Positions 20,669-34,015 of a DNA stretch of 37,331 nucleotides are shown here, one piece after another; within the stretch, counting starts at the first letter, position 1, and every line of letters begins with the position of its first letter. Under the pieces are notes generated by a model. It made no database searches. It was not told where the DNA came from and saw only the letters and a program-made list of their open reading frames with translations. The translations under genes and the position numbers were made by a program. Source of the DNA: a virus. The stretch covers positions 1 through 37,331 of IMG/VR virus record IMGVR_UViG_3300037993_000152; one strand, 5' to 3'.

Positions 20669-21178
20669 GTGGCAAAGAAAGAATTGAGTTTCTCAAACGT
20701 CAATGTCCCGACTAATGTCCTAGCCGACTTTTTAGGAATCTCAGTACGCCGAATCGATCAATTGGTAAAAGCCAGCGTGATAACTAAGCAGGCTAGCGGT
20801 GCGTTTCATTTCCGGTCAGCCGTTGATGAATACTACGTTTACAAGCTCGTGCCAAAAAAAAAGGTTGACTTTGACCACGAACATGCCCTTCACGAAAAAG
20901 CCAAGCGGCAGATGGCCGAAAATGAACTCGCATTATCAGAAGGCAAGTTGCACGATGCCGACGAGTGCGAAAAAATATACGCCAGCATGCTCGTAACCTT
21001 CAGAACGAGAATCCTGGCGATGGGGGCCAAGTGCGCTCCCAAAATCATCGGGCAGAAAAACATGGCGATCATCGCCGACATCATTAACGCAGAGGGATAT
21101 GAAGCTTTGGAGTCCTTGAGCCGAATCCCTGCTGAAAAATTAGGTGAAGCATATGAGGGAGAAAGCGGCCAGCCTTGA
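20669..21178 (+). CDS. terS: Terminase small subunit (Nu1-like)
   Basis: The GTG start gives a 169-residue protein. Residues ~10-45 form a winged HTH ([26 protein letters not shown]) that would bind the packaging site, followed by FRSAVDEYYVY and a long helical oligomerisation and terminase-binding region. It has the size and layout of Nu1-type small subunits and directly precedes a GpA-type large subunit, which it overlaps. The start is only 11 bases after a strong terminator. Confidence 0.85.
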   Translation: MAKKELSFSNVNVPTNVLADFLGISVRRIDQLVKASVITKQASGAFHFRSAVDEYYVYKLVPKKKVDFDHEHALHEKAKRQMAENELALSEGKLHDADECEKIYASMLVTFRTRILAMGAKCAPKIIGQKNMAIIADIINAEGYEALESLSRIPAEKLGEAYEGESGQP

Positions 21179-23018
21179 TTACAACCAGCGCGCTCGGCAG
21201 TATGTAACTCCCCCCAAACGACTGAAGATCAGCGAATGGGCCGATCAAAATAGAGTTTTATCCAGCGAGACCTCGGCGGAGCCTGGCCAGTGGAGAACGG
21301 ATCGAGCGCCATATCAGCGTGAGATCATGGATGCTATCACGCAGCCAGGCATTGAAAAAGTCGTGGTGATGAGCTGCGGCCAGGCGGGAAAAACGGAAAT
21401 CATCCTGAACACCATCGGTTATTACATTGATGTAGATCCCTGCCCGATCTTGATGATCCAACCCACGGAAGCGACTGCCGAGGACTATTCCAAACGCCGG
21501 GTATCATCGCTCATCCGGGACACCAAAGTTCTGGCCGATAAAGTATCAGACTCTAAGAGCCGGGACATCAATAACACGATTCTCATGAAAGTCTTCCCTG
21601 GTGGCTTCCTGTCGATGGGCGGCGCCAACTCGCCTGCTGGCTTGGCCAGCCGTCCGATCCGTATCTTACTCTGCGACGAGGTCGACCGCTACCCGGACAG
21701 CGCCGGCACGGAAGGCGACCCGATCCAGCTTGCGGAGAAGCGGACAATTACTTTCTGGAACCGGAAGAAGATTTACGTTTCCACCCCTGGCATCAAGGGT
21801 GTCTCCCGGATCGAGTTTGAATACGAATCGGGTACCCAGGAAGAGCGGCACCGCTGGTGTCCGCACTGCGGTGACCACGTTTTCATAAACCTCTACGGCA
21901 TGATCTACAACGCCCATCAGGATCCCAAGGGCAACTGGCTGGTGGAGAACGTTGTCTTCCGCTGCCCGTATTGCCTGGAAGAGGCGGATGAGATCAACTG
22001 GAAAGCCCAGGAGGGCCAATGGTTTGCGCAGAACCCCGATGTCAAAGGAGTCCGGAGCTTTCGGTTAAATTCTTTCGTATCCCCCTGGACCTCCTGGACG
22101 GAGATCATAACCGAATATCTAAGAGTCAAGGACGACCCCGAGCAGTACAAGGTTTTCGTCAACACCGTCCTCGGTGAACCCTATGAAGTCAAGGGGGAGA
22201 TCGAGAACGAGGAATACCTGGTCAAACGCCGCGAACAGTACGCCGCCGAACTCCCGGACGGTGTTTTGCTTCTGACTGCAGCCGTGGATGTGCAGGATCG
22301 CTGGTTGGAATTCGAGGTCTGCGGTTGGGGCAAAGGGGAAGAGTCCTGGGGCATCAAACATGGGGTAATCATGGGCGCGCCGGATAAGCCTGAGACCTGG
22401 CAGACCATCGATGACATTCTAAAGGCCACGTACAGATTCGCCGATGGTCTGGGCCTGACAGTGGCCTGCGCTTGCATTGACTCCGGCGGTCATTACACGT
22501 CCAGGGTCTACGATTACTGCAAACTCAACGAGGGTCGCAGGATTTTTGCCATCAAGGGCCAGGGTGGATCAGGTATCCCACTCATTCATCACATCACCCG
22601 GACCAAGAAAGAGAATGCCGCCTTGATCATCCTTGGCGTTGACGAGGGCAAGACGGCTGTCATAAATAGCCTCAAGGTACAGACACCGGGACCGTTCTAC
22701 TGCCACTTTCCGCTCGGAACCGATTACGACGTGAATTACTTCCAGGGTCTGATCTCGGAGCGGCTAGTCCAGCGAAAATACAGAGGACGAATCACGATGA
22801 ATTGGGAGAAGGTCTCCGCAGAGGCGCGTAACGAACCCTTCGACATTCGGAACTATGCCCGGGCGGCCATGAAACTGATTGTCCCGGTATCGGATAAAGG
22901 ATTTTTGGCGCTGGAGAAGCGCCTGCAAGCGGCACGTAGCGGAAGCATAATAATTTCGACACCAACGAAACAGAAGCCGAGTCGAGTTATCAGAAGCAAT
23001 CTGGATGGAGGGATTTAA
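21153..23018 (+). CDS. terL: Terminase large subunit (GpA family)
   Basis: This 621-residue packaging motor and nuclease has a Walker A at C75GQAGKT81 and a Walker B ILLCDE near 171-176. It continues with KKIYVSTPGIKG, a zinc-binding WCPHCGD...CPYC segment (~225-265), and C-terminal nuclease blocks (LTAAVDVQDRWLEFEV, CACIDSGGHYTSRVYDYC, FPLGTDYDVNYFQGLISE). It cuts concatemers at cos or pac and drives DNA into the prohead. ATG 21153 is chosen because AGGTG lies close upstream; GTG 21144 is an alternative. In lambda-like phages gpW and portal come next; here a 9-kb island intervenes. Confidence 0.95.
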   Translation: MREKAASLDYNQRARQYVTPPKRLKISEWADQNRVLSSETSAEPGQWRTDRAPYQREIMDAITQPGIEKVVVMSCGQAGKTEIILNTIGYYIDVDPCPILMIQPTEATAEDYSKRRVSSLIRDTKVLADKVSDSKSRDINNTILMKVFPGGFLSMGGANSPAGLASRPIRILLCDEVDRYPDSAGTEGDPIQLAEKRTITFWNRKKIYVSTPGIKGVSRIEFEYESGTQEERHRWCPHCGDHVFINLYGMIYNAHQDPKGNWLVENVVFRCPYCLEEADEINWKAQEGQWFAQNPDVKGVRSFRLNSFVSPWTSWTEIITEYLRVKDDPEQYKVFVNTVLGEPYEVKGEIENEEYLVKRREQYAAELPDGVLLLTAAVDVQDRWLEFEVCGWGKGEESWGIKHGVIMGAPDKPETWQTIDDILKATYRFADGLGLTVACACIDSGGHYTSRVYDYCKLNEGRRIFAIKGQGGSGIPLIHHITRTKKENAALIILGVDEGKTAVINSLKVQTPGPFYCHFPLGTDYDVNYFQGLISERLVQRKYRGRITMNWEKVSAEARNEPFDIRNYARAAMKLIVPVSDKGFLALEKRLQAARSGSIIISTPTKQKPSRVIRSNLDGGI

Positions 23019-24584
23019 ATGCCTGAACCACAGGTGATGTTTCTCAAGGCGGCAAACGGAGTATCGGTGCCCTTCCTCGTCGTGCAGGATGAGGCCGGCA
23101 ATTATCAGATGGCCACCACTCTGCTTGACGCAGACGGAAACCAGATCGCTTTCACCGGAGCCGGCGAGATCAAGGCCGTTATCGACAGCGCGGAAGTCAA
23201 CGTCGATGGAGCCTTGACTATTGCTGACGGGGCGGACGTTACCCTGGGCAGCAAGGGGGATGCTGCGGTTAATAACCCGACATCGTCGGCCACGGAGATC
23301 GCCCTTCTCAAGGGACTGCTCGAGCAGCTTCAGGGCACTGGCACGGGGAGCACTCCTACCACGCTTTCTGGTAGTATAGTTCCAGATGCTCAGTCGTTGC
23401 CGACCCATATTTATGATCCCGTAAGTGGCAAAATAGTTGGCATAGATCAGTACAACAATCTTAAAGTAGCAATGATGAATGCCTTTAGTGCCTTGGTGGA
23501 CTCAATGGCAGTCGTCCCATTTATCGGAACTTCCACAGCGGGAACATGGACAGGCGGCATACTGGTAACATCTACCTCCGGTGGGTACATCCAGATCGCC
23601 GTGGATGCCGATGTGACCGATCCGGTGGGCGTACAATACCAGACAGCCACAATCGGTTCAGCAGGCACTGCTATAGCTGTTGCCACCGCGCTACAGACGG
23701 GCATCCGGGTACTCGGCGGCATCTATCAGAGCGTTACGGTGTCTGCTGCCATGGGCGCGTACGTGATCGCATCGGCCACCCAGGGGTTTGGGTCTAAGGT
23801 CAGAATCATTGCGGCAGTCTCCGGTGATATTGCCGTTGCGCTCAACCTTACCGCCGCCACTGGCGCAACCAACAGCGACGGCACGATAGGCACCCAGGTG
23901 AGTACTACCAATCCTCTGCCTGAGCAGATCGTAGGAACAACTATAGCCAGCAGATCCTCAACGGTGACGGCTACGGCGGGTGTCCTGACGAGTGGGGCAT
24001 CTCCGATTACCAACATCACAGGATTGACCACGCCGCAGCTCAAAATCTCTGTTGATGCCAATGTGGGCTATGGAGATTCGCCTACCTATTTCAATGTTAC
24101 ACTGACCACCACCGGCGCCCACACGGGAGCACTGGTAGCCACGGCGATTACCAACGCTATAGCGGCGCTGACAGGTATCTACGCCTCCGTAGTCTGTACT
24201 TACAGCGGCGGCGTCTATGTCATTACATCAAGTACGACCGGCGTATCGTCGAGGGTGCGGGTGACGCTGGGCAATGCCGACGACTGCGCAGCGGCTCTGA
24301 ACCTGACCGGATCTACTGGCGCATTGGCCGCAGATGGCAATAGCCTCTTGACAACCAGTTTTATCAGTACAACGCCTGGACGCTCCATCCTAGCGGTTAA
24401 ACCGAGCGTGGCGGGGATTCTTTACTGCGTCATCAATAATGTGTCCGGCTATCTCCAGAGTGGGATCAAATTGACCGCAAATGCATGGTGGACGTGTGAT
24501 ATACCTATCCTGCCTAACATCCCGTACAACCTGCAGTTTGACACTGCTGGAATTGTCACAGTTGAATGGGAGGTGGGAGTATAA
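23019..24584 (+). CDS. Virion structural/adhesin protein with internal duplication
   Basis: The 521-residue protein follows the terminase directly, with GGAGGGA upstream. After an N-terminal domain (MFLKAANGVSVPFLVVQDEAGNYQM), two related beta-rich modules of about 110 residues follow. Each has IQIAVDADV or LKISVDANVG, then a TAI..ALTGIY / TGIRVLGGIY helix, a YVI(A/T)S block and a final ALNLT(A/G)..GA motif; such modules occur in phage tail and sheath proteins. Thr/Ser/Gly-rich sequence and lack of cysteine catalytic motifs fit an exposed structural protein. Whether it is a tail fibre, head fibre or neck protein cannot be read. No signal peptide is present. Confidence 0.7.
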   Translation: MPEPQVMFLKAANGVSVPFLVVQDEAGNYQMATTLLDADGNQIAFTGAGEIKAVIDSAEVNVDGALTIADGADVTLGSKGDAAVNNPTSSATEIALLKGLLEQLQGTGTGSTPTTLSGSIVPDAQSLPTHIYDPVSGKIVGIDQYNNLKVAMMNAFSALVDSMAVVPFIGTSTAGTWTGGILVTSTSGGYIQIAVDADVTDPVGVQYQTATIGSAGTAIAVATALQTGIRVLGGIYQSVTVSAAMGAYVIASATQGFGSKVRIIAAVSGDIAVALNLTAATGATNSDGTIGTQVSTTNPLPEQIVGTTIASRSSTVTATAGVLTSGASPITNITGLTTPQLKISVDANVGYGDSPTYFNVTLTTTGAHTGALVATAITNAIAALTGIYASVVCTYSGGVYVITSSTTGVSSRVRVTLGNADDCAAALNLTGSTGALAADGNSLLTTSFISTTPGRSILAVKPSVAGILYCVINNVSGYLQSGIKLTANAWWTCDIPILPNIPYNLQFDTAGIVTVEWEVGV

Positions 24585-25459
24585 TGGCTGGTCCTATGCA
24601 GGGAACTGTAAATTTATACGAACAGATCAAATTCGCTCCCGCGAACCACGGAGCGGTGGATACAGGAGGTCTTTTCGGGATTCTCTCCATAACGGCGACC
24701 TCCGAGGCGTCCGGGGTGGGCAATGCTGATGGTTCTGTGGCGATCACGGCAATCAGTAAGTCCATGACCGTCAACGATGTTGTGGTAGCGGCGGGAGATC
24801 CTAGGGTGACTTTCAACAGGTGCGGCGCTCGCATGGTGACCAATCCCAGCGCGATAGGTGCTGGCGCCACTTTGCATTTACGGGCTTACATCGACTCTCA
24901 GGATACCAGCCACATGCTGTTCGATGTGACCTACAGCGCAACGGGAGCCCAATACAATGTGAATGATCTGATTGCCTATGGGACTGTGGGCAACGGAGCG
25001 GGCAATCTTTCCACCGCCGCCTTTGCTTCTCTGCTCGACGGTGGAGCGCATACGCTTTATTTCTTCTTCTGGTGCTCCGGTGGCACTCCGACGGCGACCA
25101 TCACCGCCGCCTCGACGGATTTGGTGTACGCTATTGGGACGACTGTCGAGCCTGCAACCGCCAACGAGCAGGAGTTTTGCCAGATCGCCTTCACCGGCCA
25201 TATATCGGGATTGGCTGTTCTAACTATTGCAACAGCCACGACCGACACGGCAAACATGAAGATATATAATAACACCACGTTCTCACTAAATATATCCACT
25301 TACCTAACTTCAGGGACGGGTGGCGCTAGCAATGGTGGTTATCTTGCTTTGTTGCTGAATCTTACTCAAATCTACGATTATCTGTCGCTCAAGGGTTATG
25401 CCAGCGGAGCTAATGACCTCTGTTACTTCTCGGGCTTCAATTACGTGCTTAATGTTTAA
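24584..25459 (+). CDS. Virion structural/adhesin-like protein
   Basis: ATG 24584 overlaps the previous TAA (TAATG) with GGTGGGAG upstream. The 291 residues are beta-rich and low in charge (GSVAITAISKSMTVNDVVVAA, AGATLHLRAYIDSQDTSHMLFDVTY, NLSTAAFASLLDGGAHTLYFFFWCSGG), like phage fibre or decoration proteins. I do not recognise a named family. Its coupling to the upstream gene and the hydrolase downstream suggests that the three form one receptor-binding or surface-degrading set. Confidence 0.6.
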   Translation: MAGPMQGTVNLYEQIKFAPANHGAVDTGGLFGILSITATSEASGVGNADGSVAITAISKSMTVNDVVVAAGDPRVTFNRCGARMVTNPSAIGAGATLHLRAYIDSQDTSHMLFDVTYSATGAQYNVNDLIAYGTVGNGAGNLSTAAFASLLDGGAHTLYFFFWCSGGTPTATITAASTDLVYAIGTTVEPATANEQEFCQIAFTGHISGLAVLTIATATTDTANMKIYNNTTFSLNISTYLTSGTGGASNGGYLALLLNLTQIYDYLSLKGYASGANDLCYFSGFNYVLNV

Positions 25460-25470
25460 GGAGGGCTGAC

Positions 25471-27417
25471 ATGGGCAGACCGCTTGTCTCACTCACATCC
25501 ACCAGGCAGCCCGTAGCGAGGAGTCCGGTCGCGCAGCGTCACACCGTATCATCAAGGGAATTAGCCTACCTCCCGCGTTGGCGCGGCTTTGGCCTGCCGG
25601 ATCTGGATACTGAAAAAGTGCCGTTTAATCAGAGCGACTTTCAGATTATCGCTCAATACGGCTTCAACTTCGTCCGATTAGCTATGGGGTATCAATATAT
25701 TACATCCCCCATTACTACTTCCCAGGCGGCTGCTCCGGGAGCCGAGATGATCTACGTCAATGCTCTGACTGTGGCAATCCCCTCTGGATACAAAGTCATT
25801 TTCGGCATCACGGGAAGCACTGTCGTCACGACGCTGTCTGCTCCAGCCAATATAGGAGATACCAGTTTGACCGTGTCTGCTATCAAGACTGCCATACCGT
25901 CTGGCGAGGTGAGCTACTCGGTGCTCGATCCCGTCGCTCTGGGCTACATAGACCAGGCGATCTCCTGGTGCCTCTCGCTGGGCATCCATGTGATGCTGGA
26001 CATGCACGAGACGCTGGGATACAGCGTATTGAACCCATCTCAGAGCCCGTCCCTGTGGTTAGACTATGGGTGTATGCTGACACTGGCTCAACACTGGTCT
26101 ACCTTGGCGACAAGGTACAAGGGCATCTCCAGTACTCAACTATCGTTCAATTTGCTCAACGAACCGGAGGGAATTAACCACATCAATTATGCCGGTGTGA
26201 TTAAGATAGTGATCAATGCGGTGAAAGCGGTCGATCCTACTCGAAAGATGTTCTGCGACGGGATGCCGACTGCTCTGGTGCCGACACCGGAACTGATCGG
26301 GACAGGTGTGGGGCAGGCTTATCACGGACTCTATACTCCCATGACACTTTCGCACTATGGGGCGATATGGCTCACAAACTGGTCGGAATTTGCTGTCCCG
26401 GCATGGCCTGATACTCTTTTTGTGAACATGCTGTGGGGAAACGACTACCCGGACTACATTCTGCCTGTTATCGTTAAAGGCACTTTCTCGCCGGGAGACA
26501 CCATTTCGCTCAATATCTCACAGTGTAACATCCGTGCTCAGTACCAGATCTGGGACGCGGACAACAATATTCTCGTAGTTGACACTGGACTTTTAACGAT
26601 GACATCCAGCGGCCCCGGAACGCCTTACGAAGATCCGATCTGGCACGTCTGGTCGAACATCAATCTCGGTGTTGTGGCGACCGGCACAGTGACAGAGGCA
26701 ACCACCCAACTAGAAATTAGAGTCCCGAACGGTAACTGGTCAACGATAGCAAACATCACAACATACAACCACGGGAATACCGCCGTGCTTACTCCAAACA
26801 CCACAGAGATGGCGGGGTACTATGGACTTCCGGCAACAACTTTAACTCTGGACGACGAGGGAAATTATGTCCCGGCTGATTCCAACTGGAACATTGACAC
26901 GATCAGAGAATTGGTCAAGGCGTGGTCTGATCTGCTCACCAAGCGAGGTATCGACATCATGTCCACCGAGGGCGGGGTGTTCCACACTGTTCCTGAGAGC
27001 ATTGCATTAGCTGCCCTATCAGACCATCTCCAAGTGCTTAAGGAGTTCAGCATCGGCTTCACGATCTGGATGTTGAGAGGCAATTTCGGGGTGTTCGACT
27101 CCGGCAGGAACATGACAGGGATTTGCAACGTTAACGGCACCACGGTAACATTCGTTTCGGGAACGGCGACGGGGATGGGGGCGCAGACGGCGTTCTTCTT
27201 CTGGCCTCCGGGACAGACGATCACGCTTCCTAATGGTGTTTTTACAATAACTGCAGTTGACCCAAGCTTGTCATTCCTGACACTGACAGCATCGGCAGGA
27301 GTGCAGAATGGGGTGGCGTTCAGTTATGGGAACACCAATTATGAAACTGTCACATTCCCGGATGAATCGGTGCATTATCTGGACACGGCAATGATGAGTT
27401 TGTTACAGAGTTATTGA
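25471..27417 (+). CDS. GH5-type glycoside hydrolase, virion-associated
   Basis: The 648-residue protein has a TIM-barrel hydrolase interrupted by phage-type inserts. Early barrel strands (FQIIAQYGFNFVRLAMGY), DMHETLGY, the acid/base N230E231P232 in FNLLNEP and the nucleophile E500 in MSTEGG are the GH5 (cellulase family) signatures. Two beta repeats (GAEMIYVNALTVAIPSG and IGDTSLTVSAIKTAIPSG, residues ~90-147) and an Ig-like insert (~340-425) are added, and a C-terminal beta domain follows. No signal peptide is seen, so it is probably carried on the particle to cut a beta-glycan capsule or wall polymer. The start ATG has AAGGAGGG. Confidence 0.8.
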   Translation: MGRPLVSLTSTRQPVARSPVAQRHTVSSRELAYLPRWRGFGLPDLDTEKVPFNQSDFQIIAQYGFNFVRLAMGYQYITSPITTSQAAAPGAEMIYVNALTVAIPSGYKVIFGITGSTVVTTLSAPANIGDTSLTVSAIKTAIPSGEVSYSVLDPVALGYIDQAISWCLSLGIHVMLDMHETLGYSVLNPSQSPSLWLDYGCMLTLAQHWSTLATRYKGISSTQLSFNLLNEPEGINHINYAGVIKIVINAVKAVDPTRKMFCDGMPTALVPTPELIGTGVGQAYHGLYTPMTLSHYGAIWLTNWSEFAVPAWPDTLFVNMLWGNDYPDYILPVIVKGTFSPGDTISLNISQCNIRAQYQIWDADNNILVVDTGLLTMTSSGPGTPYEDPIWHVWSNINLGVVATGTVTEATTQLEIRVPNGNWSTIANITTYNHGNTAVLTPNTTEMAGYYGLPATTLTLDDEGNYVPADSNWNIDTIRELVKAWSDLLTKRGIDIMSTEGGVFHTVPESIALAALSDHLQVLKEFSIGFTIWMLRGNFGVFDSGRNMTGICNVNGTTVTFVSGTATGMGAQTAFFFWPPGQTITLPNGVFTITAVDPSLSFLTLTASAGVQNGVAFSYGNTNYETVTFPDESVHYLDTAMMSLLQSY

Positions 27418-27420
27418 GCA

Positions 27421-27458
27421 CGCCTTCCCATAATATGCTAATATTATATGGGGAGGCG
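27421..27458 (+). promoter_or_regulatory. Long hairpin enclosing the Shine-Dalgarno of the next gene
   Basis: CGCCTTCCCATAATAT (27421-27436) pairs with ATATTATATGGGGAGGCG (27441-27458), with one bulge and one G-T pair, around a 4-base loop. The GGGGAGG that serves ATG 27464 is inside the 3' arm. No T-run follows, so it is not a terminator on the plus strand. It would block translation from read-through transcripts but not from a start inside the hairpin. Confidence 0.7.
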
Positions 27459-27463
27459 AGATC

Positions 27464-28153
27464 ATGAACATCTACCAGAGTGGCATCTATTTAGACGAGA
27501 ATCCTGGTTGGCACGAAGAAGATTCACCCTGGAAGGCAAAGCAGATTCTTGGCATGCTGGATAGGCATGAATTGCCGATAAGCACAATATGCGAGGTCGG
27601 TTGTGGTGCTGGAGAGATTCTGAAGCAGCTACAGAACAAACTAGATGGTGATCATAACTTTTATGGTTATGATATATCACCACAAGCATACGAACTGTGC
27701 AGCAAAAAGAGCAACGACAAACTGATTTATTACTTAAAGGACTTCACGAAAGAGGATTGTTATTACAATCTGCTTTTAATAATGGACGTTGTTGAACACA
27801 TTGAAGATTATTTTAATTTCTTGCGATCTATTAGGATAAGGGGGCAATATAAGATATTTCAGTTTCCCCTGGACATGAACGCTCTTAACATCATTGTCCA
27901 CAGGTTGATAAGCACCATGAGAAATAAATATGGGCATATCCATTATTTCACTAAAGAAATCGCTTTGGAGATTTTAAAAGATACTGGATATGAAGTGATA
28001 GACTACTTTTATACCCGGTCATTCGATCTTGATTCGCCAAAAACATTAACAGCTTCAGTCTATCGGGCGACCCAGAAAGGTTTGTTTGCAATTAATAAAG
28101 ATTTAGCCGCACGTCTAATCGGTGGCCCCTCGTTGTTAGTATTAGCAAAATAA
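27464..28153 (+). CDS. Class I SAM methyltransferase, AT-rich
   Basis: The 229 residues show a type-11/23 methyltransferase: motif I EVGCGAGEIL (44-53), YGYDISPQAYELC, LLIMDVVEHIEDYFNF with the post-II VVEH, and YFTKEIALEILKDTGYEV. The family methylates small molecules, sugars or lipids; genes like this often lie in polysaccharide loci. The gene is visibly richer in A and T than its neighbours, which suggests recent transfer. Its ribosome binding site is inside a strong hairpin, so its expression is separate from the virion genes upstream. Confidence 0.8.
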   Translation: MNIYQSGIYLDENPGWHEEDSPWKAKQILGMLDRHELPISTICEVGCGAGEILKQLQNKLDGDHNFYGYDISPQAYELCSKKSNDKLIYYLKDFTKEDCYYNLLLIMDVVEHIEDYFNFLRSIRIRGQYKIFQFPLDMNALNIIVHRLISTMRNKYGHIHYFTKEIALEILKDTGYEVIDYFYTRSFDLDSPKTLTASVYRATQKGLFAINKDLAARLIGGPSLLVLAK

Positions 28154-28227
28154 TTCCTTCTCGCGCTAACGGAAAGGCTATTGCGGAGGAGCAGATCGGG
28201 TCTTTTGTCCCGAATAAATGTTCCGTT

Positions 28228-28257
28228 TTGACTATGTAAATAGTGACATGGTATGGT
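28228..28257 (+). promoter_or_regulatory. Promoter of the recombinase leader
   Basis: TTGACT (28228-28233) and TATGGT (28252-28257) are 18 bases apart. A start near 28264 would place the first base of the transcript at the first arm of the structured leader. Promoter strength is uncertain because the -10 box is 4/6. Confidence 0.55.
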
Positions 28258-28263
28258 GTAGCA

Positions 28264-28370
28264 TGAAAGCAGGCTTTGCCCGGACTGATCATCTGGGCGA
28301 GAGGCGTCCCCGTAGGCGCTGCCTGCTTTCACTACGGGACCACAAAAATACCTTACGGGAGGTACATACC
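28264..28370 (+). ncRNA. Structured, pseudoknot-capable leader of the recombinase
   Basis: P1 is an 11-bp perfect pair TGAAAGCAGGC (28264-28274) / GCCTGCTTTCA (28321-28331). P2 inside it is GCCCGGA / TCTGGGC (28278-28284 / 28292-28298) with a 7-base loop. GTCCCCGTAG (28306-28315), inside the P1 loop, pairs with CTACGGGAC (28332-28340), directly after P1, forming a pseudoknot with one bulged C. The same segment can instead pair with TACGGGA (28354-28360), which overlaps the GGGAGG of the recombinase. TACCT/AGGTA also closes a small hairpin around that ribosome binding site. It does not match a riboswitch class that I know. Confidence 0.6.
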
Positions 28371-29210
28371 ATGCTGCTCTCCGAATCGTGGCGGCTCTAT
28401 GCTGCCGACAAACATCTTTTGGGCTACAGCCCGATCACGCTCACAAACTACAAACTGCAAGTCGATTTACTGATCAGGGGAATCGGAGATCTCGATCTCG
28501 AAGAGATCAAGACCGAAGAACTCAAAGGCTACTTGGCCAGCCAAACCCAACTCAAGCCGTCCAGCTTGGGGATGCGGATCCGATCACTCCGCTCTCTGTT
28601 CCACTGGGCCAGCGACGAGGGTTATCTGCCCAAGAATCCTGCCAGCCGGTTAAAAGAGCCGAAGCTTGGCGACCGAATCCCGAAGGCTTTAAGCGATGAG
28701 GACATGGAACGCCTCAGGCAGGCCTGTATCACGCCATTCGAGCATTCTCTGATTGAGTTTTTCGCTGCTACCGGGTGCCGGATCGGCGAGATTTACCGTC
28801 TCGACCGGGATGACATTAATTGGACTGATCGAGGCTGCGTTGTACTCGGCAAAGGCAATAAGGAGCGTCCGGTATTCTTCGACGTTCCGACCGCTGTCTG
28901 GCTGCAAAAATACTTGGCCGAACGGAAGGACATCGACCCGGCGCTCTTTGTGACCAGAAGGGCTCCGCACAGGATGTCAATATCTCAGATCCGATATGTG
29001 GTCAAGCAGATTGCCAAACGGGCTGAAATAAGGGTGAACGTTTTCCCGCATGCCCTGCGGCATACGTTTGCAATGGAGATGCTCAACGGCGATGCCCCGA
29101 TGGATCTGGTGCGGGAGCTACTGGGGCACAACGACCTACGAACGACCAGGATATACGCCCGGCTGACCAAAGAAAGCATGCGGAATCAGTACAGAAGATA
29201 TCGGCACTGA
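28371..29210 (+). CDS. Second tyrosine recombinase (XerC/D-like)
   Basis: ATG 28371 has GGGAGG eight bases upstream; the frame is open from 28218 but that part is the structured leader. The 279-residue protein has the SAM-like core-binding domain (residues 1-90) and a full catalytic set: R137 in GCRIGE, K164 or K161, H227 and R230 in HALRHTF, H253 in LGHND and Y262 in RIYARL. It lacks the arm-binding domain of the main integrase, so it resembles Xer-type enzymes and small cassette recombinases. Its likely job is mobility or inversion of a segment of this island. It is followed by a strong terminator. Confidence 0.9.
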   Translation: MLLSESWRLYAADKHLLGYSPITLTNYKLQVDLLIRGIGDLDLEEIKTEELKGYLASQTQLKPSSLGMRIRSLRSLFHWASDEGYLPKNPASRLKEPKLGDRIPKALSDEDMERLRQACITPFEHSLIEFFAATGCRIGEIYRLDRDDINWTDRGCVVLGKGNKERPVFFDVPTAVWLQKYLAERKDIDPALFVTRRAPHRMSISQIRYVVKQIAKRAEIRVNVFPHALRHTFAMEMLNGDAPMDLVRELLGHNDLRTTRIYARLTKESMRNQYRRYRH

Positions 29211-29230
29211 AAAATATTTCACGTAGAATA

Positions 29231-29258
29231 AACCGCCCAGCGAGGCGGTTTTTCTTTT
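29231..29258 (+). terminator. Intrinsic terminator after the recombinase
   Basis: AACCGCC / GGCGGTT with a six-base loop is followed by TTTCTTTT. It isolates the recombinase from the glycosyltransferase genes, whose ribosome binding site starts at once after it. The stem is the same as in the terminator at 32316. Confidence 0.9.
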
Positions 29259-29267
29259 GGAGGCACC

Positions 29268-30656
29268 ATGAACATTGCCATCGTCTTCAGCCCGGACTGG
29301 TCGCGATACGTAGCCATTGAGCTTTTATCTATTTTCAGCACTAATCCAGCCCCGATCAAGGTGTATCTAATTTCGGACGGTCCGCCGCTGATGGATTTCC
29401 AGTGTCTTTGTCGTCCTGGTTGCGAGGTGCAATACATCGACTTGGAGCAGCGATTCAAGGAGCGGATTCCCAGCATCGTAAACGTATGCACCCGGTTTAC
29501 GAAATACGTTCTTTATCGGTTACTGCTTCCGGAGATCATCAATGATGATCGGCTGCTCTACCTGGATGCTGATGTAATCGTCAACGGTGATATTACCGGG
29601 TTCTATAACACGGACATGGGTGACAACCTTGTTGCTGGTGTTCAAGACACGGGCATGGGCTGCGGTAATCTAACGGCCTGGCATCAACGGCTGCAGTCAA
29701 TCGGGTTAAGCCCGGGCGCGCGATATATCAATGCCGGTGTTACTCTGTTCAATATGGCCGCGGTTCGTAAGTCCGGGCTGCAAGAGACCTGGATCCGGAT
29801 GGCCAATGAAATGGCCTACGCCTGCCATGATCAGGACATTATCAACCTTACTTGCCAGGGGCGGATCCAACTGATCAATTTGCCCTACAATGTGTCGCTA
29901 TCAACCGGATTGGATATCAACCAGGATGATATTCGGATCATGCATTATGCTGGCCAGAAGCCCTGGGCAAACTCTGATGCGCCTTTTCAGGCCATCTGGA
30001 AGCGCTGGGCAGATAAGTACGATGCTGAGACTCCGAAAATTCCAAAGAAGATCCATTATTGCTGGTTTGGTGGCTGGCCAAAGCCGCCGATCATTCAGAG
30101 ATGCATGGAGAGCTGGCAACGGGTTCTCCCGGGTTACGAGATCGTCGAATGGAATGAATCCAATTTTGATCTCAGCCGTTATCCTTACGCAAAGGCAGCT
30201 TACGACAGCGGTAAATTCGCTTTTGTAACCGATGTCGTAAGGCTCTGGGCCTTATACCATTATGGCGGGATCTACCTTGATGGTGATGTGGAAATTCTTC
30301 AACCTCTCGACCGATTTTTAAGACATCGGGCGTTCACCGGGCACGAGATAGACGATCTCTGGTTGACGGCCGTACTGGGCGCCGAGCCGGGACATCCTTG
30401 GATTGAGAAATTATTGCGGTACTACGAGACGGCCCCCTTTGATTGCGTTCCGAATACGCAAGTTGTGACCAAGTTATCTCGGCCTTTGTTGGAACGAGAA
30501 GTTTATGGCTTCAAATACCTGCAGGGTGGCGTAGTGATCTATCCTATAGATACGTTCTGCGGCTATAACCATCAGGAACTCAGGCCGATAGTGACCGAAA
30601 ATTCATATGCCACTCACTGGTTCGCTGGATCGTGGCTGGGAAGGATGGCAGTATGA
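29268..30656 (+). CDS. Two-domain glycosyltransferase (GT8 + GT32)
   Basis: The 462-residue protein joins two retaining glycosyltransferases. Residues 1-235 are GT8-like, with the metal-binding D100AD102 in LLYLDADVIV, NAGVTLFNM and HDQDIIN. Residues ~255-462 are GT32-like (KIPKKIHYCWFGG, MESWQRVLPGYEIVEW, DVVRLWALYHYGGIYLDGDVE with D337GD339). Such fusions could add two different sugars in turn from nucleotide-sugar donors. GGAGGC precedes the ATG. Its neighbours are a methyltransferase and another glycosyltransferase, so it probably acts on a host-surface or virion glycan in the cytoplasm. Confidence 0.85.
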   Translation: MNIAIVFSPDWSRYVAIELLSIFSTNPAPIKVYLISDGPPLMDFQCLCRPGCEVQYIDLEQRFKERIPSIVNVCTRFTKYVLYRLLLPEIINDDRLLYLDADVIVNGDITGFYNTDMGDNLVAGVQDTGMGCGNLTAWHQRLQSIGLSPGARYINAGVTLFNMAAVRKSGLQETWIRMANEMAYACHDQDIINLTCQGRIQLINLPYNVSLSTGLDINQDDIRIMHYAGQKPWANSDAPFQAIWKRWADKYDAETPKIPKKIHYCWFGGWPKPPIIQRCMESWQRVLPGYEIVEWNESNFDLSRYPYAKAAYDSGKFAFVTDVVRLWALYHYGGIYLDGDVEILQPLDRFLRHRAFTGHEIDDLWLTAVLGAEPGHPWIEKLLRYYETAPFDCVPNTQVVTKLSRPLLEREVYGFKYLQGGVVIYPIDTFCGYNHQELRPIVTENSYATHWFAGSWLGRMAV

Positions 30657-31354
30657 TCGATCTGGGCGAGATACTCCAGGATGATATCCTCTGGCAGATG
30701 AGCGCTGCAGAGAAAATGGCCATCCTCTACTTGCTTGGTAAACTGAAAAACAAGCATACAGCTATTGAGATCGGCAGTTACAAGGGTGGTTTTACCAGGA
30801 TCCTGGCGCAGCACTTTAATAAGGTCTATTCATGCGACATAGACCATTCTGCAATCATTCATCCGGAGCAATACGGCAATGTGCTCTGGATCGAGGGTGA
30901 TTCCCGGGAGACTGTGCCTTCGCTCATTGAGCAGATCAACAAAACTGAAGAAATCGTCAATTTGATTCTGATAGACGGGGATCATTCCTATGAGGCAGTT
31001 TCTCAGGATATTAAAAACATTCTGGAATATAAGCCCTTAGACGAGACTATAATTCTGGTTCATGATTCCTGGTACCCTGGTTGTAGGGATGCCATCAACA
31101 ATGCCGACTGGAACAGCAATCCCTATATCGACTACGTAGAAAAGGATTTTGTGGCCGGAGATATCTGCGGTTCGGCAAACGGCAATTTCTTGGTTGGTGG
31201 TCTGGCTTTAATTGCGATGTCACCGCAGAAGAGACATGGATTTGTTAGGGTTGAGCAGAGCCAGGATCATATGTATTCCGTTTGCAAGCAACTCCTGGAA
31301 ACATCGAAAGACCTCTACGAGATGAAGGCGATCTGGAAGAGGATGGTCGAGTGA
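30653..31354 (+). CDS. Class I methyltransferase (type 24-like)
   Basis: ATG 30653 overlaps the previous TGA. The 233 residues contain AIEIGSYKGGFTRIL (motif I, ~38-50), VYSCDIDHS, LILIDGDHSYEAVSQDI (the IDGxHxYxxVxxD signature of Methyltransf_24) and ILVHDSWYPG. Members methylate sugars, often O-methylating capsule or glycan residues. Its overlap with glycosyltransferases on both sides makes sugar methylation the natural reading. Confidence 0.8.
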   Translation: MIDLGEILQDDILWQMSAAEKMAILYLLGKLKNKHTAIEIGSYKGGFTRILAQHFNKVYSCDIDHSAIIHPEQYGNVLWIEGDSRETVPSLIEQINKTEEIVNLILIDGDHSYEAVSQDIKNILEYKPLDETIILVHDSWYPGCRDAINNADWNSNPYIDYVEKDFVAGDICGSANGNFLVGGLALIAMSPQKRHGFVRVEQSQDHMYSVCKQLLETSKDLYEMKAIWKRMVE

Positions 31355-32040
31355 GGCCAAAAGTGATCATCGGTTGCCCGGTGAACCGAGCCAGAGTGCT
31401 CCCGAAGTATTTGAAAGCCTTGCGGGATCTGGATTACCCCGACAAGGCTTTTCTGTTTTTGGAGAATGATTCCACGGATAGCACATTGCCTATCCTACTG
31501 CAGTTTGCTTCCGAGTGGGGTGCCCGGGCGGTCAGTGAATCTTTCCCAGGCCCTGCGTACAACCGCAATGAGTTCAAAAGAGATAGTTATACTCGCCTGG
31601 CTGCGGTCCGGAACCGGCTTATCGATCTGTTTCTTGAATCCGATGCCGACTACCTTTTTTCGGTTGACTCCGACGTGATCGTGCCGCCGGATATCCTGAC
31701 CAGGCTGCTGGCTATCGCCGATCCGGAGACGATTGCCGGCGCCGCCATCTGTAATGTCGCTGGCTGCCAGTTGGATGGTACGGTGGCGGGCAATTTCATG
31801 ATTCGCAAGGGCAACTTGTTCGACCATCCGAAGAATTATCCGTTGTCTGGCGTCATGGACGTGGATCATCTCGGCGCCTGCTACCTAATTCCCCGAAGCG
31901 TGCTTGAGGGTGGCGTGAGATATGCCGCTGATATGCAGGGGGAAGATGCTCCCTGGTGCCGGGCAGCCGCAGAAAAAGGGTACCGCATGCAGATTCTATT
32001 GGATTCGGGCTGTGATCACCGTATGAACGAGGTGGTATAA
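31351..32040 (+). CDS. GT2-like glycosyltransferase
   Basis: GTG 31351 overlaps the previous TGA. The 229-residue protein has a GT-A fold: VIIGCPVNRARVLPKYLKAL, FLENDSTDST, the metal-binding D106SD108 in YLFSVDSDVIVP and a late HLGACYLIPRSVL and GEDAPWCRAAAEKGYRM. The pattern resembles family 2 and the glycosyltransferases of phage islands. It ends 1 base before the connector gene, so the island joins the packaging operon without a break. Confidence 0.75.
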   Translation: MRPKVIIGCPVNRARVLPKYLKALRDLDYPDKAFLFLENDSTDSTLPILLQFASEWGARAVSESFPGPAYNRNEFKRDSYTRLAAVRNRLIDLFLESDADYLFSVDSDVIVPPDILTRLLAIADPETIAGAAICNVAGCQLDGTVAGNFMIRKGNLFDHPKNYPLSGVMDVDHLGACYLIPRSVLEGGVRYAADMQGEDAPWCRAAAEKGYRMQILLDSGCDHRMNEVV

Positions 32041-32446: not shown

Positions 32447-34015
32447 GTGAGAAAAGAAGCTGCCAGGTTCACCACGGCCACGATAAAAAGGGCATATGTC
32501 AATAGCGGGTATTCCTACGAAGGCGGCAGCCTCGATAAAAGGTCGTTAAAGGGTTGGATAGCAGATTCTAGGAGCCCGGTTGAGGACATAGATATGAATT
32601 TGTTCCTCCTCCGCATGCGCTCCCGCTCCCTCTACATGGGGTCTCCGCTGGCTGCCTCCGCAATCAAGGCGTACAACGCCAACGTGGTGGGCGCCGGCCT
32701 GCAACTCCGCCCCAAGATCGATTATGAATTCCTGGGACTCTCCCGGGAAGAGGCCAAGGCCTGGGAGTCGGGCGTCAGGCGTGAATTCGAGTTGTGGGCC
32801 AGTAAGCCCCGTAACTGTGACGCCACGAGGGTCAATAACTTCTACGAGATGCAGGGACTCTGCCTGATCTCCTGGCTGCTCAACGGCGACGGCTTCGCCC
32901 TGATAGACAGCGAGCCGGTAAGGGATTTCGCTCCGTACAGCCTGCGGATACACCTGATCGAGGGTGACCGGATAACGAATCCGAACACCACCGCATTCTC
33001 GGGCTTGACTGGTCAGGTCTGGTGGAACCTCGACAATGGCAACCGGGTCTACAATGGGATAGAGATCGACGACAACGGCGGGATCGTAGCCTATCACGTC
33101 TGCAATTTCTACCCGAACAGCTTCATCCCGACGATGAAGCTCCGAAGGTGGACGAGGATCCCGGCATATGGATCGACCGGGCTGCCGAACATCCTGCAGT
33201 GTATGTATTCCGAGCGCCCAGAGCAGTATCGGGGCGTTCCTCTCCTGGCACCGGTGATCGAAACCCTGAAGCAGTTGACCCGTTACATCGATGCTGAGCT
33301 GATAGCGGCGGTGATCAACGGCTTCTTCACCGCGTTTGTCACGAGCTCACTGCCGACCAGTGGGTTTCCTTTTGATGAGTCGTTGCCCGAGGCACAGAAA
33401 GTTGACAACACCGAGTACACCTACGAGATGGGGCCAGGCAACGTCAACCGGTTAATGCCCGGCGAGAGCGTGGAGGTTGCCGATCCCAAGCGCCCGACCA
33501 AGCAATTCGATGCGTTTGTGACCGCTATGGCCAAACACATCGGCGCCGCCATCGAGGTGCCCTACGAGATCCTGCTCAAGTCTTTCGACGCCAGCTATTC
33601 TGCCAGCCGGGCGGCCTTACTGGAGGCCTGGAAATCGTTCCGGATGCGCAGGTCGTTTTTATCAAAGGATTTCTGCCAGCCCATTTACGAGATTTGGCTT
33701 TCTGAGGCGGTCGCCCGGGGCAGAGTCACAGCCCCCGGGTTTTTTGATGACCCGATCGTTGCCGCAGCATGGGCAAAAGCAGAATGGAACGGGCCTTCAC
33801 CGGGCCAGATCGACCCGCTTAAAGAGGTCCTGGCTGCTCAGAAGCGTGTGGACAATGGTTTCTCTACTCGTGAAAAAGAAACGATTGAGCTCACTGGCGG
33901 CGATTTTAACGCAAACATTGAGCAGATCACCCGTGAAAACGCGCAGATGAAAGAGGCCAATGCTGTGTTCGACCCTACAGTGATCGATCAGCAGGTTGAG
34001 AATCCGGCAACTTGA
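32447..34015 (+). CDS. Portal protein (lambda GpB family)
   Basis: The 522-residue frame from GTG 32447 covers the lambda-family portal: RAYVNSGYSYEGG, LRMRSRSLYMGSPLAASAIKAYNANVVGAGLQL, LLNGDGFALID, the wing/stem region (YRGVPLLAPVIETLKQLTRYIDAELIAAVINGFF), and the clip and crown with SFDASYSASRAALLEAWKSFRMRR. It forms the 12-fold DNA channel. The frame reads protein-like sequence upstream to about 32363 (IGGLKGFFSNLWNG), but no ATG, GTG or TTG opens it, and GTG 32447 has its ribosome binding site too close. The true N-terminus is therefore uncertain; see findings. Confidence 0.92.
   Translation: MRKEAARFTTATIKRAYVNSGYSYEGGSLDKRSLKGWIADSRSPVEDIDMNLFLLRMRSRSLYMGSPLAASAIKAYNANVVGAGLQLRPKIDYEFLGLSREEAKAWESGVRREFELWASKPRNCDATRVNNFYEMQGLCLISWLLNGDGFALIDSEPVRDFAPYSLRIHLIEGDRITNPNTTAFSGLTGQVWWNLDNGNRVYNGIEIDDNGGIVAYHVCNFYPNSFIPTMKLRRWTRIPAYGSTGLPNILQCMYSERPEQYRGVPLLAPVIETLKQLTRYIDAELIAAVINGFFTAFVTSSLPTSGFPFDESLPEAQKVDNTEYTYEMGPGNVNRLMPGESVEVADPKRPTKQFDAFVTAMAKHIGAAIEVPYEILLKSFDASYSASRAALLEAWKSFRMRRSFLSKDFCQPIYEIWLSEAVARGRVTAPGFFDDPIVAAAWAKAEWNGPSPGQIDPLKEVLAAQKRVDNGFSTREKETIELTGGDFNANIEQITRENAQMKEANAVFDPTVIDQQVENPAT

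Follow-up and report, generated by a model that had tools for sequence, protein, structure and literature searches.

The tyrosine recombinase gene that starts with the ATG at 28371 of the analysed stretch of viral DNA (the window, a virus record of 37,331 bases) is directly preceded by 107 bases of structured sequence, 28264-28370, which are likely to be a diverged RNA of the int-alpA type and to act as a two-state translational switch. The loop of one hairpin in this leader is complementary to two segments further downstream, the second of which overlaps the Shine-Dalgarno sequence. The structure of the leader is itself well supported, and that it switches in response to some trigger is what we infer from the pairings in the sequence.

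The recombinase is the second tyrosine recombinase of the window and is flanked by a methyltransferase gene upstream and a glycosyltransferase gene downstream; replication genes are also encoded in the window. Between the terminase and portal genes, the interval 23019-32040 holds probable cargo genes (GH5-type protein, GT8 glycosyltransferase, methyltransferases) with the recombinase in their midst. In locus L139 and in Terrisporobacter phage TPELB_ph1 the related recombinase comes after tail genes, and in the latter it precedes the holin. The features of the locus are as follows.

201-1388, - strand: tRNA-side integrase.
21144-23018: terminase.
28211-28224, + strand: LexA-like box CGAATAAATGTTCC, two mismatches to the consensus CGAAC-N4-GTTCG, just upstream of the -35 element.
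28228-28257, + strand: sigma-70-type promoter TTGACT-18-TATGGT with a TG before the -10 box; RNA start expected at about 28264, where P1 begins.
28264-28274, + strand: 5' strand of P1, TGAAAGCAGGC, 11 bp at 100% with GCCTGCTTTCA; P1 is kept in 8 of 8 leaders, with 98% of cells paired.
28278-28298, + strand: hairpin P2, GCCCGGA (28278-28284) with TCTGGGC (28292-28298), 7 bp including one G-U; 6 of 7 pairs show two-sided changes over 8 leaders.
28303-28320, + strand: hairpin P3, GGCGTC (28303-28308) with GGCGCT (28315-28320); its loop CCCGTA (28309-28314) is predicted to choose between the two partners.
28321-28331, + strand: 3' strand of P1, GCCTGCTTTCA.
28332-28340, + strand: p1, first of the two segments complementary to the P3 loop, CTACGGGAC; gives the pseudoknot and covaries with the loop.
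28349-28364, + strand: hairpin P4, TACCT-TACGGG-AGGTA (TACCTTACGGGAGGTA), which carries the Shine-Dalgarno sequence in its loop.
28353-28362, + strand: p2, second segment complementary to the P3 loop, TTACGGGAGG; overlaps the Shine-Dalgarno sequence and covaries with the loop.
28371-29210, + strand: tyrosine recombinase, 279 aa (Phage_integrase E 1.2e-30, Phage_int_SAM_1 2e-6, PHROG 1 integrase).
32447-34015: portal.

A preliminary description of this leader had reported the perfect 11-bp P1, the P2 hairpin inside it, two copies of TACGGGA, the promoter and the ATG, each of which lies where it had been placed. The copies of TACGGGA are at 28333 and 28354, the second overlapping the Shine-Dalgarno sequence GGAGG (28358-28362), and the pseudoknot pairing joins GTCCCCGTAG (28306-28315) to CTACGGGAC (28332-28340) through 9 bp with one bulged C. 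The same description had proposed an H-type pseudoknot, of which the loop-to-downstream pairing stands, but a third hairpin, P3, had been missed, which makes the fold a three-way junction. Similarly, the overlap of the second partner with the Shine-Dalgarno sequence is real, and that this partner sits in the loop of hairpin P4 had been overlooked. The elements go beyond chance, as their layout is conserved in relatives and the minimum free energy of the leader (-49.7 kcal/mol) was reached by 0 of 200 shuffles (-36.1 +/- 3.5 kcal/mol; z -3.9). In the plain minimum free energy fold, CTAC (28332-28335) is paired to GTAG (28258-28261); the latter is probably absent from the RNA, since it follows the -10 box but comes before the position at which transcription is expected to start. 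The loop-p1 and loop-p2 duplexes of the window have strengths of -13.6 and -12.9 kcal/mol. An in-frame ATG at 28263 was considered as an alternative start and rejected, as it is not conserved in relatives.

Relatives of the leader were found at seven further loci in phages or prophages of Bacillota, in each case directly upstream of a recombinase 35-58% identical to that of the window. A blastn search of phages and plasmids with the leader gave no relative, and a single-protein scan of viral contigs gave no match. A scan of viral contigs for the two pseudoknot halves (CCCCGTAG-N8..30-CTACGGG) returned about 120 matches, mostly chance, including one in locus L035 immediately upstream of a recombinase with 58% identity to that of the window. 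The same leader is present in L139 (recombinase 42%), and L146 (recombinase 54%) has a leader with an altered loop, CCCCTGA, and correspondingly altered partners, TTCAGGG and ACAGGGA. In a further relative, L242, the loop CCTAGGG faces the p2 segment CCCTAGG in the Shine-Dalgarno sequence; its p1 is absent or very weak, and this leader may therefore lack the decoy or use a different partner. A covariance model built from four leaders and used to search 528 genomes without any protein input gave three new strong matches (L301-L303, 58-72 bits), all directly before recombinases 35-40% identical to the window's, and their loops (TCCCTGAG, TCCTGGAG) fit both partners; L302, for example, has the loop TCCTGGAGG with p1 TCTCCAGGA and p2 TTTCCAGGA. 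Weak matches of the model in Clostridia and Bacilli (L304-L306) were rejected, as no recombinase lies beside any of them and L304 and L305 are terminator-like hairpins.

Compensatory changes, the lack of which in homologues had been named beforehand as grounds for abandoning the proposal, are present in these leaders. Over the 8 leaders 90.4% of helix cells are paired, and 11 pairs and 22 cells show two-sided changes, compared with 36-53% paired and 1-9 such cells in slid controls. This covariation comes mostly from P2 and P3, P1 telling little because it hardly varies, and in P4 two of four pairs have two-sided changes. Among the Bacillota relatives, changes in the loop (CCCGTA, CCCTGA, CCTGGA, CCTAGGG) are matched in both partners; with the 8 leaders alone, partner permutations were as good in 12 of 20,000 cases for loop-p1 and 6 of 20,000 for loop-p2. 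The proposal made from the window, of two partners in competition with the Shine-Dalgarno sequence as one of them, is thus supported by covariation in the relatives of the leader, and also in the Rfam int-alpA family, as set out below.

Some near relatives of the recombinase are without this leader (L148, L241 and the Bacillaceae loci L158-L161). The Bacillaceae loci (recombinase 50-54%) have in common a conserved leader of another kind, ATAGTTCAATACC...AATCAAGGCAATAATTCCTC. An unrelated candidate pseudoknot leader, AGTGGC...GAAC-GCCACT...GTTCT with varying stems and without an Rfam match, precedes N-extended recombinases of Clostridia (L162 3581-4001, L163 3581-4001, L166 1735-2155).

Control of transcription may be judged from the region upstream of the leader. 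A -10 box is found at the equivalent place in L035, L139, L146, L242 and L301-L303, and a LexA-like box matching the consensus lies 51-54 bases before P1 in 6 of the 8 Bacillota leaders (for instance, CGAACAAATGTTTG in L302 and CGAACAAACGTTTG in L303). This fixed distance makes it probable that transcription of the recombinase is under SOS control through the LexA box. Short imperfect inverted repeats are also present upstream of the promoter in L148, L035, L146 and the window (28165-28190), such as ACTAACG-AAGGTG-CGTTAGT in L148; they resemble a recombinase core site more than the RNA does, and are weak in the window.

The preliminary description could name no class for the leader, and this no longer holds, as it corresponds at a distance to int-alpA RNA (RF02996) by way of two relatives. 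The leader of L146 scores 36.5 bits against RF02996, above the Rfam gathering cut-off of 35.8 bits, and that of L035 scores 27.2 bits at the same place, below the cut-off. The window leader itself gave no meaningful match to Rfam, RF02996 included, either at the gathering cut-off or at E<=10, and matches to RF02996 are likewise absent in L139, L242 and L301-L303. The structure line of RF02996 reads P1, UAG, P2, GAAAA, P3 and the closing strand of P1, after which a short tail leads to a terminal AGGG opposite CCUU of the P3 loop. The three-way junction of P1, P2 and P3 is present in 8 leaders with covarying helices and is given by the Rfam structure line on L146, and the P3 loop of the window is complementary to the segment directly after P1. 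The junction strands UAG and GAAAA are found in L035 and L146; the window has UUU and GAGA. The leader is therefore treated as a diverged int-alpA-type variant, having the int-alpA architecture and a link through close relatives, but failing the formal score.

The original description of int-alpA is reportedly Weinberg 2017. Both int-alpA and the window leader have the P1/P2/P3 junction, a P3 loop that pairs just after P1 and a tyrosine recombinase nearby. However, int-alpA is proteobacterial, follows an integrase and is placed between an integrase gene and alpA, whereas the leader in this Bacillota phage has its own promoter, with a methyltransferase gene upstream and the recombinase downstream. 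The RF02996 model, with 71 positions, reaches as far as p1 and lacks both P4 and p2 with the Shine-Dalgarno sequence; Rfam types the family as 'Gene; sRNA'. The name int-alpA also appears as an entry in a list (PMC12370729).

The two-partner idea came from the window alone, so that the int-alpA RNAs of other genomes provide an independent test. Within the class of E. albertii, 41 of 369 genomes contained such an RNA, and 50 gammaproteobacterial loci were read, with P3, p1 and p2 assigned by a script and seven manual corrections. In nearly all 50, the P3 loop matches both p1 right after P1 and p2, which is the Shine-Dalgarno sequence and ends a median of 7 nt from the start codon; both partners are not clearly shown in L257, L265, L276, L288 and L290. 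Over 55 RNAs, 0 of 20,000 partner permutations were as good as the observed complementarity, for loop-p1 (z 11.0) and for loop-p2 (z 9.1), and the outcome was unchanged with one sequence per distinct loop; the permutations ignore relatedness, yet the loops are nearly all different (53 distinct). Stretches inside the downstream genes reach the score of the leader's own p2 only about 3-6% of the time. The stem of P4 around p2 was likewise unmatched by permuted arms (0 of 20,000, z 8.5, n = 49), and its sequence varies between members (GCACG/CGTGC, CGCATT/AATGCG, GGTGCA/TGCACC). The most telling cases are loops that do not look like generic anti-Shine-Dalgarno sequences: CTCTCAC with GTGAGAG twice (L298), TCGTA with TACGA twice (L295), TCGCACCTTGC with a p2 match of 11 bp (L297) and TTCGTTAC with GTAACGGA (L287).

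The same loop bases serve p1 and p2 in 53 of 56 RNAs, so that the two pairings exclude each other. Median duplex strengths are -9.0 kcal/mol for loop-p1 and -9.75 kcal/mol for loop-p2, near-equal values that are as expected of a two-state switch. The junction strand between P1 and P2 is TAG in 46 of 50, the distance from P3 to the start codon is mostly 35-60 nt, and the genes downstream are mostly unrelated orphans, including non-recombinases. A relative of the RNA occurs in 88 of 5,426 E. coli genomes; the order in E. coli members is integrase, RNA, hypothetical gene and AlpA-like HTH regulator gene, the annotated start following p2; among strains p1 changes with the loop (ACCTTA/TAAGGT, GCCTTA/TAAGGC). 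In L250 and L252-L300 the RNA mostly begins 3-13 nt past the stop codon of an upstream gene (integrases, HTH antitoxin-like genes, DUF2283). A ribosome that terminates there would thus overlap with P1 and might itself contribute to the signal. This spacing also led to the idea that int-alpA is an attC-like intergenic cassette site, which was rejected on the Shine-Dalgarno covariation. The two-partner design appears to be conserved across the int-alpA family. This conservation suggests that mobile DNA employs the family to switch translation.

The leader thus combines two mutually exclusive pairings, one of which covers the ribosome site, as in riboswitch-type control. With the P3 loop on p1, the pseudoknotted junction would close and the Shine-Dalgarno sequence would be exposed in the loop of P4, allowing translation; with the P3 loop kissing the P4 loop, the ribosome site would be covered and translation would be off. 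The on state should form first, as a kinetic default, because p1 is transcribed before p2. Some event, be it a ligand, a protein, an antisense RNA or a ribosome, may then shift the balance, the likeliest receptor being the junction bases CUAG and GAAAA. SOS induction would release transcription through the LexA box, and production of the recombinase would require agreement of both controls. The element could be a metabolite riboswitch, but the unrelated orphan genes downstream of the proteobacterial RNAs speak for a signal common to mobile elements and are unusual for a riboswitch of that kind.

Three other explanations need to be weighed against a two-state switch. It is unlikely that the leader is static, its structure tuning or stabilising the mRNA and P4 and the kissing interaction dampening translation without a regulated change of state. 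The diversity of the downstream genes would fit such a role, as would the lack of a known ligand or trigger and the fact that in 37 of 56 RNAs the loop forms its stronger duplex with p2; however, a competing second partner would then have no reason to persist and to covary with the loop, and the junction bases (TAG 46/50) are far more conserved than a passive hairpin needs. We give a low probability to a trans-acting sRNA, whose CU-rich P3 loop would pair with the Shine-Dalgarno sites of other mRNAs and match its own site only incidentally. Loops rich in C and U would indeed fit many such sites, the leader might act in trans once released, and Rfam lists the family as an sRNA. Nevertheless, the loops match their own downstream sites much better than the sites of other members (0 of 20,000 permutations), which holds also for loops that are not anti-Shine-Dalgarno-like (L287, L295, L297, L298, L300); moreover, almost every member has the RNA adjoining the start codon, and the window has no terminator-like site between RNA and recombinase gene.

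Very improbable is a recombination site acting in DNA, double-stranded or as a folded single strand, which the preliminary description had offered as its alternative and for which a perfect 11-bp inverted repeat beside a tyrosine recombinase gene would be the obvious sign. The helices hold 25 G-U cells and 3 A-C cells as read on the sense strand, an asymmetry at odds with a site that would serve on either strand, and selection therefore appears to act on the coding-strand RNA rather than on an inverted repeat in DNA. Furthermore, a partner that covaries with the loop at the Shine-Dalgarno sequence makes sense only in mRNA, every leader has P1 close behind the end of a -10 box, and relatives of the RNA precede genes other than recombinases.

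The switch proposed here can be compared with other pseudoknots that control translation. SAM-II and preQ1-II are translational riboswitches in which a pseudoknot holds the Shine-Dalgarno sequence, and the present leader resembles them in being a compact pseudoknot adjoining the start codon with a loop that pairs with the ribosome-binding region. It differs in having two competing copies of the partner, the second in a hairpin loop of its own, and in being without an evident ligand or pathway gene and without an Rfam match to the SAM-II or preQ1-II families. In the repZ gene of IncB and IncI plasmids, an activator pseudoknot takes part in copy-number control. There a pairing between loop and leader likewise controls whether ribosomes gain access to the start of a replicon gene, and the loops are suited to kissing, but in the present case no antisense RNA was found, the fold is another one and the controlled gene is a recombinase.

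Tentatively, int-alpA-type RNAs may constitute one widespread class of bistable kissing-loop switches that mobile elements put before any gene in need of gating, from prophage recombinases to orphan cargo, and that sense induction, replication or infection rather than the metabolite of one pathway. The family is filed in Rfam as a small RNA with no function assigned, and its model ends before the ribosome site; for the second partner, p2, outright priority over the original int-alpA description is not claimed. If the reading is correct, int-alpA would be a cis-acting translation switch with a specific and mutable logic of loop, decoy and Shine-Dalgarno sequence, and it would extend beyond Proteobacteria to phages of Bacillota, in which recombinase translation would respond to a further input in addition to the likely SOS control. 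An orphan class of RNA would also gain a function open to direct testing, E. coli included.
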